Translations under genes and position numbers: made by a program
Assembly (NCBI GenBank): GCA_026692905.1
Contig: JAPLNL010000119.1
Span: 62,001 to 126,000 of the forward strand
From: Planctomycetota bacterium
GTDB lineage: Bacteria > Planctomycetota > Planctomycetia > Pirellulales > Pirellulaceae
Direction of reading: 5' to 3'
DNA: 64,000 nucleotides
Shown: piece after piece, positions 3,656 through 58,775 of the stretch
Numbering within the stretch: position 1 is the stretch's first letter
Layout: every line of letters starts with the position of its first letter
The notes under the pieces: model-generated
Told to the model about the DNA's origin: nothing
The model's database searches: none
The model's input: the letters and a program-made list of their open reading frames with translations, nothing else

Positions 3656-5488
3656 TCATTCCAGCTCGATTTGGTCTTGTCCGGTCGATTGCAGGTAGTG
3701 ACCCCAAAGAAGAAAGAGGCCACTCGTTGCGAAGTAACCACATGCAAGTTGCCACATCGATGATCGCATTCCGCTTGGGAGAATCCATGCGTCGGGAAGT
3801 CCTGGTACACCGACAGGCAAAAACAAGGCATTGTTGGGCACGGGGGAATGGATCAGTCCAAACAAGGTGAAGCCGCCAGCTATCGCGGCGAACACGGCAG
3901 CATGCTTCATTTTTCGGTCGATCGCCATGGCCAACAATGAGGCCCATAGCAAACTGGTCAGAATGAAGCCTTGCTTGAGGAGATGGACAGTCTGAAGATC
4001 GGACACTAGATCAGGGCGGAGCCTAAAGGCCGATTGAACCGTCTTCATTTGTTCGGCCATTGCTTCCTTTTCGGAGGCAAGCGAAGCGAGTCCATCGATG
4101 GCTTGTTGGATGTCTGGACGGAGCGAAGAATTACGGAGCGAAGAATCACGGAGCGAAGAATCACGGAGCGAAGAATCACCCAGCGAAATTCCGATGCCAC
4201 CCAAGAGCTGGTCTGCGTAAAGATAAGCCAAAAAGGCCAAAGCGGGAACGCAGGCAAAGACCAAGGCAGGGTAATGTCGTTTGGGAGTTGCCAAGAAGCT
4301 TTGAGCTGAAATTTCGAGTCCCACAAAGATCAAAATCGGATAGACCGCCGCTTTGGGAATGAGCATATAAAAGTAGCCGAAGCCCCCGAGCAATCCGATA
4401 GCTCCAACGGTAATCGCGGTACCAAGAACATAGGCAGCTCGTCCGCCCATCGCTTTGTAGGCTGGATGTCCGATGTACGGAGTCGTTTGTGTTACGCCAC
4501 CGAAGAGTCCAGCGACAAACGTCGCAAACGCTTCGACGCCCAATATTTGTCCCGTTGAATATTCGTCTCCTGCTGCGCTAGCTGACTCGGTGCAATCGAT
4601 ACCACCGACGACGGTACACAGAGCAAATGGGATGGCGACAGGTAGATAATTGATAGCTGGCCCCATTTGTTGCCACCAGCCAAAACCGAGGGCTGACATC
4701 CACGCAGTCGGAGGCAAACCTGGAGCAAGCGACGCCAATGTAGGTAGCGATTGTCCCGTCACTATGGTTTGGATGTAGTGAATGACGCCTCCAACCACTA
4801 GTGCTGCAAGCGTGCCCGGGATCTTGAATGGCAGAGGGACACGTCCGACCAAGCTGGTCAATACTATTGCCAGAGCCACGAGGCCGACGATGGGTTCACG
4901 AAATACATCTACCAGCGGAACGAAGCTGATAATGACCAGAGCGATCGAAGTTAGTGAGCCAAACAGGCCGGCTCGCGGGATAACTTTACGAACCCAAGCC
5001 CCACCGAATGAGCAAACGGTTTTGAAAATACCGGCATAGATCATACAGCAAATGCCAATATGCCAAGCAATCGTGGCTGCTTGTTCAGGTGAGGAGCCTG
5101 CCTTGAGGGCACTGGAGTAAGCAGCTCCGACCACAAAAATGGAGAGGCCAAAAATACTCGGCGTATCTAGCCCGAGCGGCATGGCGGTTACCTCTTGCCG
5201 GCCAGTCTTTTTGGCAAGCTGAAGAGCCATAAAAAAGTAAAGCAAATCACCGACCAACACACCGATGGCGGTTCCTGGGACCATGTGGTTCAGCACAAAT
5301 TCCTCGGGCATCTTAAAGCCCCCAACGAGGAGCCCAACCATCAAGACTAGGCCGGCGATGTTGTCCAAAAGCAGGCCAAAATAGGCGTTCACGTCACCTG
5401 AAGTTGCCCAGCGGTATCCACGATTCATTCGCAATTCCTCAGCTCGAGTCGGAAAATCTTTGGATGGAGAGACTAACATTGGTGTCAT
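3656..5488 (-). CDS. NCS2-like (xanthine/uracil permease superfamily) membrane transporter
   Basis: A polytopic membrane protein of about 610 residues with 12 or more hydrophobic segments. The stretch GGIDCTESASAAGDEY followed by TQTTPYIGHPAYKAMGGRA resembles the substrate-site region of NCS2/AzgA-type permeases, so a nucleobase-like or other small anion substrate is possible but not shown. A hydrophilic loop about three quarters along carries four copies of the pentapeptide DSSLR (one as NSSLR), encoded by a 15-bp tandem repeat, and a short helical stretch that has no counterpart in standard family members as far as I recall. ATG at 5488 is chosen; TTG at 5497 and ATG at 5479 are alternatives and none has a clear ribosome binding site. 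Confidence 0.75.
   Translation of the reverse strand: MTPMLVSPSKDFPTRAEELRMNRGYRWATSGDVNAYFGLLLDNIAGLVLMVGLLVGGFKMPEEFVLNHMVPGTAIGVLVGDLLYFFMALQLAKKTGRQEVTAMPLGLDTPSIFGLSIFVVGAAYSSALKAGSSPEQAATIAWHIGICCMIYAGIFKTVCSFGGAWVRKVIPRAGLFGSLTSIALVIISFVPLVDVFREPIVGLVALAIVLTSLVGRVPLPFKIPGTLAALVVGGVIHYIQTIVTGQSLPTLASLAPGLPPTAWMSALGFGWWQQMGPAINYLPVAIPFALCTVVGGIDCTESASAAGDEYSTGQILGVEAFATFVAGLFGGVTQTTPYIGHPAYKAMGGRAAYVLGTAITVGAIGLLGGFGYFYMLIPKAAVYPILIFVGLEISAQSFLATPKRHYPALVFACVPALAFLAYLYADQLLGGIGISLGDSSLRDSSLRDSSLRNSSLRPDIQQAIDGLASLASEKEAMAEQMKTVQSAFRLRPDLVSDLQTVHLLKQGFILTSLLWASLLAMAIDRKMKHAAVFAAIAGGFTLFGLIHSPVPNNALFLPVGVPGLPDAWILPSGMRSSMWQLACGYFATSGLFLLWGHYLQSTGQDQIELE
4119..4187. repeat. 15-bp tandem repeat inside the permease gene
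   Basis: Four tandem 15-bp units (CGGAGCGAAGAATCA, the first ending TTA) at 4119-4178, then a partial degenerate unit. The unit length keeps the reading frame and encodes repeated D-S-S-L-R on the minus strand. Copy number could change by slippage without breaking the protein. Confidence 0.95.
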
Positions 5489-16446: not shown

Positions 16447-16572
16447 GCCGTGAAACGGCGACACCTCACCGTGGCGCCGTTTCACGGCTCTTGAATTCAT
16501 CGTTGCTAGAGACCGTGGGGCGAGCCCCACGGCTACCAAGTGTCGCCGCTATCGTGGCTAAGAAACAAAGCG
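16447..16572. repeat. Repeat family A, copy A1 (uninterrupted)
   Basis: Two adjoining palindromic modules: a hairpin with arms GCCGTGAAACGGCG... and ...CGCCGTTTCACGGC (16447-16488), and a second part 16510-16572 with the GTGGGGC/GCCCCAC hairpin followed by GTCGCCGCTATCGTGGCTAA. The second part recurs at 31862 and both at 39615-39880. The rest of the 16364-16893 gap holds further small GC-rich palindromes and no gene that I can support. Confidence 0.85.
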
Positions 16573-22718: not shown

Positions 22719-23012
22719 CTCGTTCCCAGGCTCCGCCTGGGAACGCAATGCATTGGAGGCTCCCGCCCACCGCTGTAAACATGTTTCCAACGAGTTTACC
22801 TAAGTCATTCATTGCTCGGGAGGGTGAGGCTCCTGTCAAACCTTTGCACCGTTGGCTCGGCAGGAGCCTCGCCCTCCCTAAGGTTTTCAATGGAATTGAC
22901 TTTGCAAAGATGTTTACAGCGGTGGGCTCCCGCCTCCTGAGTTCACTACTCGATAGCAACGCGAGGCGGAGCCTCGAAAACAGAGCGTTCCAACGCGGAG
23001 CCTTGGAACGAG
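22719..23012. repeat. Repeat family F, interrupted by a family B element
   Basis: Begins CTCGTTCCCAGGCTCCGCC and ends in GCCTTGGAACGAG, so its ends are inverted. The interior is split by the B1 element at 22767-22925. A short related piece (CTCGTTCCAAGGCTC) occurs at 55127. The gap 22630-23068 lies between two convergent genes and holds no gene that I can support. Confidence 0.8.
22767..22925. mobile_element. Family B element B1 (MITE-like) with target duplication
   Basis: A 159-bp element with perfect terminal inverted repeats CCACCGCTGTAAACAT / ATGTTTACAGCGGTGG. Inside is a hairpin with arms GGGAGGGTGAGGCTCCTG and CAGGAGCCTCGCCCTCCC. It is flanked by direct repeats GCTCCCGC (22759-22766 and 22926-22933), consistent with a target-site duplication of 8-9 bp. 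It carries no gene. Confidence 0.85.
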
Positions 23013-27786: not shown

Positions 27787-27870
27787 CATGGGAGGGCGAG
27801 GCGCCTGCCGAGCCGGTGACGTTATGGTTCGGCGGAGCCTCACCCTCCCTAGTAATGAACTGTTGCGAAG
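27787..27870. repeat. Family B inner hairpin, degraded copy B5
   Basis: GGGAGGGCGAGGCGCCTGCC at 27790 pairs with GGTTCGGCGGAGCCTCACCC further on; the terminal inverted repeats seen in B1 and B2 are not recognisable here. Confidence 0.7.
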
Positions 27871-39614: not shown

Positions 39615-39880
39615 CAAGCGCCGTGAAACGCTACGCTGTTTCGCATTTTGTAGCGAAACTCGTCAAGAGTTTCGGTGGTTTACGCAATGCAGCCGAAAGT
39701 CTTGACGACTTTCGCTACAGAAAAGCCCAATTTACATTGAGCAGAATGCGAAACAGCGTTGCGTGAAACGGCGCCACCACAACGTGGCGCCGTTTCACGG
39801 CGCTTGTATCCATCGTACGTAGAGACCATGGGGCAAGCCCCATGGCTACAAAATGTCGCCGCTATCGCGGCTAAGAAACA
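39615..39880. repeat. Repeat family A, copy A3, interrupted by element C3
   Basis: Outer arms CAAGCGCCGTGAAACG (39615-39630) and CGTTTCACGGCGCTTG (39791-39806) form the first family A hairpin, split by C3. The second module (GAGACCATGGGGCAAGCCCC, then GTCGCCGCTATCGCGGCTAA) runs to 39880. A decayed family C-like core follows to about 39950. The rest of the 39511-40004 gap has no gene. Confidence 0.9.
39631..39761. mobile_element. Family C element C3 (MITE-like) with 9-bp target duplication
   Basis: A 131-bp element with 20-bp terminal inverted repeats (CTACGCTGTTTCGCATTTTG; 18 of 20 match) and the family C inner hairpin (GTAGCGAAACTCGTC ... GACGACTTTCGCTAC). It is flanked by the direct repeat CGTGAAACG (39622-39630 and 39762-39770). 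Copy A1 at 16447 shows the same hairpin arm without insertion. No coding capacity. Confidence 0.9.
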
Positions 39881-42644: not shown

Positions 42645-42814
42645 CGTTCTTCTCCGTGATTGGCAGTGGGGATTACGAAAATCCGTTGAATGCAAATCGT
42701 GCGCCGAAAACCACTGCACTGGAAACGACCGAGCTTTACCCCGGCTTAACCCCAAAATCAAAACGGGTAACTTCAAAGCCTGATCGAGTGACTCTACCAA
42801 GTCCAGTTCAGACC

Positions 42815-42930
42815 TTAGGGAGGGCGAGGCTCCTGCCGAGCCAGCGGTGAAAAGGTTCGGCAGGAGCCTCACCCTCCCCAGCCATGATTTGCTTAGGTAA
42901 ACTCCAAGAAAAAATGTTTGGAGCGATGGC
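42815..42930. repeat. Family B, diverged copy B4
   Basis: Inner hairpin GGGAGGGCGAGGCTCCTGCC ... GGCAGGAGCCTCACCCTCCC, then CTTAGGTAAACT and a decayed right end AAAATGTTTGGAGCGATGG. It matches B2 in the same orientation. The left terminal repeat is not recognisable. The rest of the 42645-43038 gap between the divergent clpB and DUF4159 genes shows no gene. Confidence 0.8.
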
Positions 42931-57521: not shown

Positions 57522-58389
57522 ATTTTTGGTCTCCGTTACCTTCCAATAGTGAGTGAGTCCGGGATCAGCACAATGCGTACTAACCCCATGACGGTACTTG
57601 CCCTTGTTGAATCCAAACGTGACCAATTTGCTATCACTCCGTAGAGTTTTCGCAACCGATCCACCGTCGGATGACAACTGGGTCTGGGCATTAACATCAT
57701 TAGTCCGACTCGTTCGCGGTACGAAATGCAAAGCTCCTTCTCTGCTGCTTTCGCGGCGAACTCATCTGCTTTTGAACCGACTCGAATCCCTAGCTTGAGC
57801 ATGTACGAGCAACCGCACCCCTACGACGGAACGCATTTGCTCAACCCAAACATTCGAATTCGGCTTACCAGCCAAGAAGACTGGGGACAGAGAATCTGCC
57901 TGCACTATCGGTGACGCGTTCAAGCCGAAGCATCTGCGCACCCATAGCTGCATCCAAGCAAATCAATCTTGGATTGCAAGCACTTTCCCCCCTAATCAAC
58001 TTGGCAGGCTTATCAAAAAACTGGACTTGACTCGTGAGAGTTGTCCAGCGCAGATCAAGCCGTCCTGCACCTAGTTTCGTTTCAAAGGGGGGGATTACTT
58101 TAGAAAGAATCTTCGGATCGATCGGTATCAGCCAATTCAACCGAAATCGTAATCGAACCCACTCTTTTTTAACCTAAATTTCAATTTCGAGAGGCTTTCG
58201 ATCAAGTGATAAAGACGACGCAACCCATGTATTTTGCTCGATTGGATTAACGAAACGAATCGATCCGAAGTTGCCTCTATTCCCTTGGTAAAGTCTGCGG
58301 GCAACAACAACTGAGTGCGACATTTTTTTGCTTTCTCCCCTCGACCCCCTTAGGCGAGCGGCAGGCTGAAAACTTCCCGCGAAGGTTCC
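57522..58389. other. Intergenic stretch without a recognised gene
   Basis: About 870 bases with several short open frames on both strands, none with a domain, ribosome binding site or steady composition. A run CCCCCCCTTTGAAAC (minus strand) lies near 58085. I see no gene here; it is followed by repeats. Confidence 0.5.
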
Positions 58390-58620
58390 AATGGGAGAGC
58401 CAGGCTCCTGCCGAGCTTGGTAACGGTTCGGCAGGAGCCTCTCCCCACCGCTGTAAACATCTTTGCACAGTCAATTCCATTGAAAAACATTAGGGAGTGC
58501 GAGGCTCCTGCCGACCAAACGGTGCAAAGGTTCGGCAGGAGCCTCACCCTCCCGAGCAATGAATGACTTAGGTAAACTCGTTGGAAACATGTTTACCGCG
58601 GTGGAGCCTCTCCCTCCCGG
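58390..58620. repeat. Hairpin repeat interrupted by family B element B2
   Basis: Left arm GGGAGAGCCAGGCTCCTGCC and right arm GGCAGGAGCCTCTCC form a hairpin of the kind found inside family B. Its right arm is split by B2 and resumes as CTCTCCCTCCC after 58605. Confidence 0.85.
58445..58604. mobile_element. Family B element B2 (MITE-like) with 9-bp target duplication
   Basis: A 160-bp element with ends CCACCGCTGTAAACAT and ATGTTTACCGCGGTGG (15 of 16), the reverse complement orientation of B1. It is flanked by AGCCTCTCC on both sides (58436-58444 and 58605-58613). Its inner hairpin is GGGAGTGCGAGGCTCCTGCC ... GGCAGGAGCCTCACCCTCCC. No coding capacity. Confidence 0.9.
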
Positions 58621-58645
58621 TATAAGCAGAGCTGCGGCTCGCCTT

Positions 58646-58775
58646 AGGCAATGCTGTGAAGCATCTTGTAGCGAAACTCGTCAAGAGTTTCGGTCGTTTA
58701 AGTGATGCAGCCGAAAGTCTTGACGACTTTCGCTTCACAAAACCCTGTCTTTAGCTGCACAAGATGCTTCAAAAC
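58646..58775. repeat. Repeat family C, copy C4
   Basis: GGCAATGCTGTGAAGCATC at the left; perfect 13-bp inner terminal pair TGAAGCATCTTGT (58657-58669) and ACAAGATGCTTCA (58759-58771); core GTAGCGAAACTCGTCAAGAG ... CTTGACGACTTTCGCT. The extreme right end has decayed. Confidence 0.85.

Follow-up and report, generated by a model that had tools for sequence, protein, structure and literature searches.

A gene-less element of a Pirellula-like planctomycete enters hairpin arms at one exact spot and often takes the place of the hairpin tip

Mobile elements of one short family, here termed B, occur in more than 100 copies in the genome of a Pirellula-like planctomycete, where most of them are inserted at one fixed position within one arm of an abundant, GC-rich hairpin. 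In nearly half of these hairpin insertions the tip of the hairpin is replaced by B. Entry at one exact hairpin position together with an exchange of the tip is an unusual mode of insertion for a transposon. B is probably a MITE that is moved by an absent DDE transposase with a combined sequence and palindrome target, and the replacement of the tip would then result from the mirror arm being attacked as well. The draft genome (G000) comprises 5.96 Mb in 148 contigs; the window, i.e. the whole analysed stretch of 64,000 nucleotides, corresponds to positions 62001-126000 of contig C119. Among named organisms, a protein from the neighbourhood is closest to those of MAGs labelled Planctomycetaceae bacterium RE-27jun17-92 (93% protein identity; this MAG is G021) and Pirellula staleyi (76%).

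The copy B2 (Table 1) has inverted termini (CCACCGCTGTAAACATCTTTGC ... GGAAACATGTTTACCGCGGTGG) and is bordered on either side by AGCCTCTCC (58436-58444 and 58605-58613). Read between these two copies the element comprises 160 bp with the ends CCACCGCTGTAAACAT and ATGTTTACCGCGGTGG. The limits of the duplication can be shifted, as the element starts with C and finishes with G, edge bases which are common to target and element; it therefore counts 9 bp (AGCCTCTCC) or, if the ends are taken as symmetric (CACC..GGTG), 11 bp (GAGCCTCTCCC), the latter convention giving 9 bp for most other B copies. The GC-rich target hairpin, GGGAGAGCCAGGCTCCTGCCGA-loop-TCGGCAGGAGCCTCTCCC, harbours B2 within its right (3') arm. 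Its folding energy (58393-58444) is -21.4 kcal/mol (z = -4.5), and the core hairpin of B2 itself (58493-58553), which belongs to the same family, reaches -22.7 kcal/mol (z = -6.8). Both are enclosed by a host element whose ends (inverted repeat I7) are 88% complementary. Nearly all of this host stretch (58255-58646) is missing from the relative locus L200, and a usable empty site for B2 was not found, the relative lacking the entire host stretch.

Table 1 Features of the B family and of its targets in the window
Feature	Position	Strand	Basis
B1 element, 157 bp; lies within GGAGGC-TCCC-GCCTCC (palindrome) and is flanked by the 10-bp duplication GGCTCCCGCC	22768..22924	-	
Intact hairpin of the target family, B ends absent	27790..27849	+	
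Diverged B-like copy, core hairpin 42818-42878	42812..42929	+	D5/I1 repeats
Diverged B-like copy with core hairpin; ortholog in L200	51839..51960	-	
Host element of B2: 17-bp inverted ends CCTTAGGCGAGCGGCAG / CTGCGGCTCGCCTTAGG around the target hairpin	58348..58648	+	
Target hairpin, left arm, GGGAGAGCCAGGCTCCTGCCGA	58393..58414	+	
Target hairpin, right arm as far as B2, TCGGCAGGAGCCTCTCC	58428..58444	+	
Target duplication, copy 1, GAGCCTCTCCC (AGCCTCTCC within)	58435..58445	+	
B2 element, 158 bp, ends CACCGC..GCGGTG, gene-less	58446..58603	+	
B2 core hairpin of the target's own family; B brings its own target	58493..58553	+	Fold and nested copies
Target duplication, copy 2, GAGCCTCTCCC, perfect match to copy 1	58604..58614	+	
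Remainder of the target right arm (TCCC), pushed away by B2	58615..58618	+	

An earlier note on this DNA had placed three insertions, B1, B2 and C3, inside palindromes, and all three placements hold. For B2, reading and folding confirm a hairpin of the type of its own core with AGCCTCTCC on both sides. The palindrome of B1 is found as an exact empty site in locus L343 of G021 (TCAGGAGGCGGGAGCCTCCAATG, or GGAGGCGGGAGCCTCC on the opposite strand) between flanks of 98-99% identity. C3, which we take to be the 131-bp element at 39631-39761, interrupts a GCGCCGTGAAACGGCGCC hairpin, and the duplication at its borders measures 9 bp (CGTGAAACG). This inverted-end element is unrelated to B, and a further copy (L173:15743) resides in the same hairpin family with the duplication CGTTTCACG. 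Insertion into hairpin arms is thus not unique to B, since the 131-bp element enters hairpins as well.

B copies carry CACC[G/C]CTGTAAACAT at both sides (pattern also CACC[G/C]C..GTAAACAT), and the two ends are too alike to orient B reliably relative to its target. With 157-160 bp the elements are too short for a transposase gene; short, gene-less and equipped with terminal inverted repeats, they have the build of MITEs. About 240 B end sequences and 206 exact-match hairpins were counted across G000, of which about 1.36 Mb, comprising the surroundings of B copies and stretches of contig C119, were sampled. The 58 full-length copies collected initially all differ in sequence (median identity 94%). 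Among 60 genomes searched, matches to B were found in six, G000 included, all of the same genus, and among the relatives full-length copies are restricted to G009 and G021; those of G009 are only about 78% alike. Many G000 contigs start or stop within or beside B (e.g. C54, C65, C104, C131, C141), and the assembly is broken at these ends because of the B copies there. The literature searched yielded no account of this hairpin family for Pirellula.

Counting elements with both ends paired, at least one hairpin arm adjoins B in 55 of 61 copies in G000, 30 of 32 in G009 and 4 of 6 in G021. Even under the generous assumption of 400 hairpins, equal to 0.44% of the genome and thus an expected share below 0.5%, the chance of finding at least 50 of 61 elements in hairpins has a log10 P of about -106. 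The genome-wide count proposed in the earlier note accordingly finds B concentrated in hairpins, and a majority in non-palindromic DNA was not seen. Out of 220 unique B ends, 126 join an outer arm (GGGAGGGYGAGG|) and 53 an inner arm (GGCAGGAGCCTCRCC|), the remainder being located at another palindromic repeat, whose core is CACTTCACC (10 ends), or at other DNA (31 ends). The outer-arm junctions use the identical base offset in 122 of 126 cases. The duplications range over 9, 10 and 11 bp, and the duplicated 9-mer has the consensus GCCTCRCCC, followed by TCCC.

B also nests in B at the same base, because it contains the same hairpin arms as its target. In G021 an outer copy on contig C113 is split at positions 97-105, and trains of partial outer copies are present at L025 and L029. 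By means of the carried target hairpin every new B copy adds two further targets. Half-B copies joined to other hairpins (e.g. L043, L313) are found as well, since repeated arms favour deletions.

Two insertion products can be distinguished, the second of which was beyond the view of the earlier note. Type 1 (inner/outer) is the standard insertion into one arm and amounts to 35 cases (24 in G000, 10 in G009 and one in G021). A 9-bp duplication accompanies most of them, and in about half it is GCCTCACCC; in G000 all 24 are bordered on either side by the 9-mer, its two copies differing at no more than two positions and being identical in 13 cases. Type 2 (outer/outer) has the structure GGGAGGGYGAGGC|B|GCCTCRCCCTCCC: the 9-mers of both arms are whole and B stands exactly in place of the tip, without any duplication. 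It was counted 29 times (17 in G000, 10 in G009 and two in G021), the G000 share to be read with the caution that many of the 148 draft contigs stop inside B. Both products are kept across about 20% sequence divergence. As with MITEs, target-site duplications and a clean empty site are found for type-1 copies and B1, the duplication being absent from type 2.

The mirror product (inner/inner) was found once in the three genomes, against 29 outer/outer cases (P = 6e-8 for equal numbers), whereas reciprocal recombination is expected to yield both in equal numbers. This imbalance bears on the possibility that B-B homologous recombination or assembly errors joined the outer arms of different hairpins. 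Shuffling of this kind is a known reason for missing duplications (PMC1525189, PMC11708052), and an assembly in draft state, with contigs ending in B, could invite it, yet it would have produced inner/inner junctions as often as outer/outer ones. Furthermore, type 2 is equally common among the G009 copies, and an assembler collapse of identical repeats does not account for it because these are only about 78% alike. The flanks of three type-2 elements (E014, E037 and E044) moreover both align to one continuous locus of the relative. We therefore regard shuffled flanks as very unlikely.

These loci were recognised by searching unique flank pieces of G000 B loci in G021 and comparing the loci found. 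At the position of B, the relative has an intact tip, CTCCTGCCGAGCCGACGTGCCAAGGTTCGGCAGGAG, for E014 (L170:1401 vs L313), likewise an intact tip for E037 (L142:3662 vs L347), and a tip plus an extra insert in the loop for E044 (L059 vs L345); other rearrangements occur in the region of E014 and E044, i.e. in two of the three type-2 comparisons. Type-1 loci behave in the same manner: the relative possesses an intact hairpin at E008 (L297) and E018 (L356), and a hairpin with a different loop insert at E006 (L355). Elsewhere the comparison mostly did not provide an orthologous hairpin that could be used, since G021 lacks it, often having another palindrome in that place, or aligns on one side only. 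It would be extremely improbable, in our opinion, that B ends and hairpin arms move as one larger repeat that never inserts into a hairpin. The core sequence common to B and the hairpins fits such a unit, as do several relative loci devoid of both; on the other hand, the hairpin stands without B at six relative loci, as does the palindrome of B1, its flanks differ from place to place, and 9-bp duplications of its own accompany B.

The small loop inserts in the G021 hairpins at L345 and L355, one of them flanked by the short repeat AGGTTCG, give the impression that elements of several families land in these hairpins. At L346, L349, L358, L359 and L350 the intergenic slot that contains hairpin plus B in G000 is occupied in the relative by another small palindrome, GTTTAACAGTCAGCCG.. 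or GTAGCGAAACTCGTC.., as if such slots exchanged palindromes.

The earlier note had suggested that the target is chosen by structure, i.e. hairpins or cruciforms. The concentration in hairpins stood; structure may be part of what is recognised, but sequence matters in either case, because there is a fixed junction base and a consensus GCCTCRCCC plus TCCC. Target choice is by sequence at least as much as by structure. Taken to its end, this would mean that the transposase recognises GCCTCRCCCTCCC and takes no notice of the hairpin fold, the hairpins being merely rich in the motif. Such pure sequence targeting is a serious alternative, although we lean against it. It is in line with the single fixed junction base and the 9-mer consensus, and the sites outside the hairpin family share the shape of the 9-mer, often with TCCC beyond. 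However, the 7-mer core GGYGAGG bears B at 104 of about 302 places in hairpin arms, about a third, and at 4 of 267 outside them, in a sample drawn around B with mostly genic outside sites, so that selection on genes may explain part of the contrast. The B sites outside the main hairpin family also lie in unusually stable folds, with a mean of -21.5 vs -15.8 kcal/mol (P = 4e-4) in GC-rich control windows from the same loci, unmatched for intergenic position. In addition, products involving both arms exceed the expectation from independent hits (17 vs 11, P = 0.005), an excess which the bias of the sample towards insertions works against and which unequal target quality could also cause. Both sequence and structure thus appear to count in the targeting of B, the part of structure being supported, short of proof.

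In the mechanism that we consider probable, a DDE-type transposase would act on B in trans, its autonomous copy being absent from the assembly. It would cut GCCTCRCCC (then TCCC) with a stagger of 9 bp and insert B there, in keeping with the observed position, duplication and empty sites. This 9-mer stands in each arm of the abundant hairpin, so that two mirror-image targets are offered per hairpin. Type 2 would most likely arise when the transposase also attacks the mirror arm. Most simply, the inner end of an inserted B could make an adjacent deletion up to the mirror target, which would give exactly the observed type-2 junctions and no inner/inner class. Otherwise two B copies might enter both arms and then collapse, or the stem might be attacked while extruded, its two 9-mers forming one duplex.

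In its strongest form the last route would have the transposase prefer extruded hairpins (cruciform or single-stranded) and cut the 9-mers paired in the stem as one target, joining B to both arms with loss of the tip, which we think unlikely but worth keeping in mind. If this were true, the replacement of the tip would be a primary insertion pathway visible in ordinary genome sequence, and the frequency of type 2 would serve as a natural archive of cruciform extrusion in living cells.

The assignment of the probable transposase to the DDE class is derived from the duplication length (9-11 bp) alone. DDE transposons of the IS4-like group make duplications of about 9-12 bp. The reading of the 9-bp duplication as a sign of a DDE-type enzyme, put forward before, is shared here, while the IS200/IS605-like (HUH) mechanism raised next to it clashes with the type-1 duplications. 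Searches with the terminal inverted repeats revealed no transposase with B ends in draft G000, and the matches read, with 2-3 mismatches at most, all resemble B in their interiors; the autonomous partner may have been lost or may be hidden within unassembled DNA. A related autonomous element with the same ends is common for MITEs and is not required of each. In G009 a pair of B ends lies 3.8 kb apart at locus L363, a possible full element.

A mobilisation of the hairpins as single strands (IS200/IS605- or RAYT-like), with B as a hairpin-borne passenger, is highly improbable. G000 does contain seven Y1 transposase-like genes, and the type-2 junctions are bounded by hairpins and free of duplications. 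To our knowledge, however, the IS200/IS605-like class makes no target duplications, and type-1 copies have 9-bp duplications; such elements also lack inverted ends, whereas B has both. Neither of the two Y1 loci read, out of seven, has a B-type hairpin beside the gene, and one has a GAGCCGTGAAACGGCG palindrome instead. Several GAGCCGTGAAACGGCG palindromes precede this IS200-like gene, a RAYT candidate (L099:6797-7569 in contig C121 of G000), and the same palindrome family is present in the window at 16449, 31802 and 39762. The gene and these palindromes are likely a REP/RAYT pair separate from the B hairpins.

Among known systems, B comes closest in behaviour to the insertion sequences that target REP hairpins. 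IS elements of five families enter such hairpins at a single fixed base, among the REP-targeting IS being IS1397, ISKpn1, ISPsy8, IS621, ISPa11 and ISRm22 (PMC1525189); ISRm22, placed in the IS4 family, makes a 6-bp duplication and is centred on the palindrome axis (PMC1525189). High-copy palindromic repeats as targets, a fixed entry base and, in several IS families, target duplications are shared with B, most copies of which lie in palindromes at a fixed point in all three genomes. In contrast to B, which is gene-less and exceeds 100 copies, REP-targeting IS are autonomous and have few copies; furthermore, B carries its target hairpin and so often replaces the tip. B is therefore filed as a MITE with REP-like targeting, as it behaves like REP-targeting IS but encodes no transposase. 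With bacterial MITEs (PMC10969869) it shares the short, gene-less build, terminal inverted repeats, target duplication and high copy number, but it is nearly site-specific and nests in itself by way of the carried target, and its autonomous partner was not found in G000.

Like REP/REPIN-RAYT systems (PMC3116915, PMC2817692), B involves an abundant intergenic GC-rich palindrome as target in a genome with Y1 transposase-like genes. The B hairpin, however, is a stem-loop of about 60 bp, the two Y1 loci read of seven have no RAYT beside this hairpin family, and B moves with duplications whereas REPINs do not. Adjacent deletions are a known side reaction of IS elements which removes target duplications (PMC11708052). 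B resembles these events in the loss of both the DNA beside the element end and the duplication, but in B the loss always runs precisely up to the mirror target of the opposite arm. An earlier description of target carriage and tip replacement was not found in the literature searched.

The copies of B, more than 100 in one genome and more in two relatives, are a large natural data set on the choice of palindromic targets. Each site offers a pair of mirror-image targets, and duplication versus tip replacement makes an attack on extruded hairpins directly testable. The carried target amounts to a self-feeding strategy by which insertions create new safe landing sites; this might account for the nesting of intergenic palindromes in planctomycete genomes and for the assembly breaks there. 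One B copy (L104:4803-4900, minus strand) has a core in which tandem GGGAGGGCGAGGCTA 15-mers replace a single hairpin arm, and a short tandem array of the 15-mer ACGGAGCGAAGAATC is located at 4118-4192 of the window.
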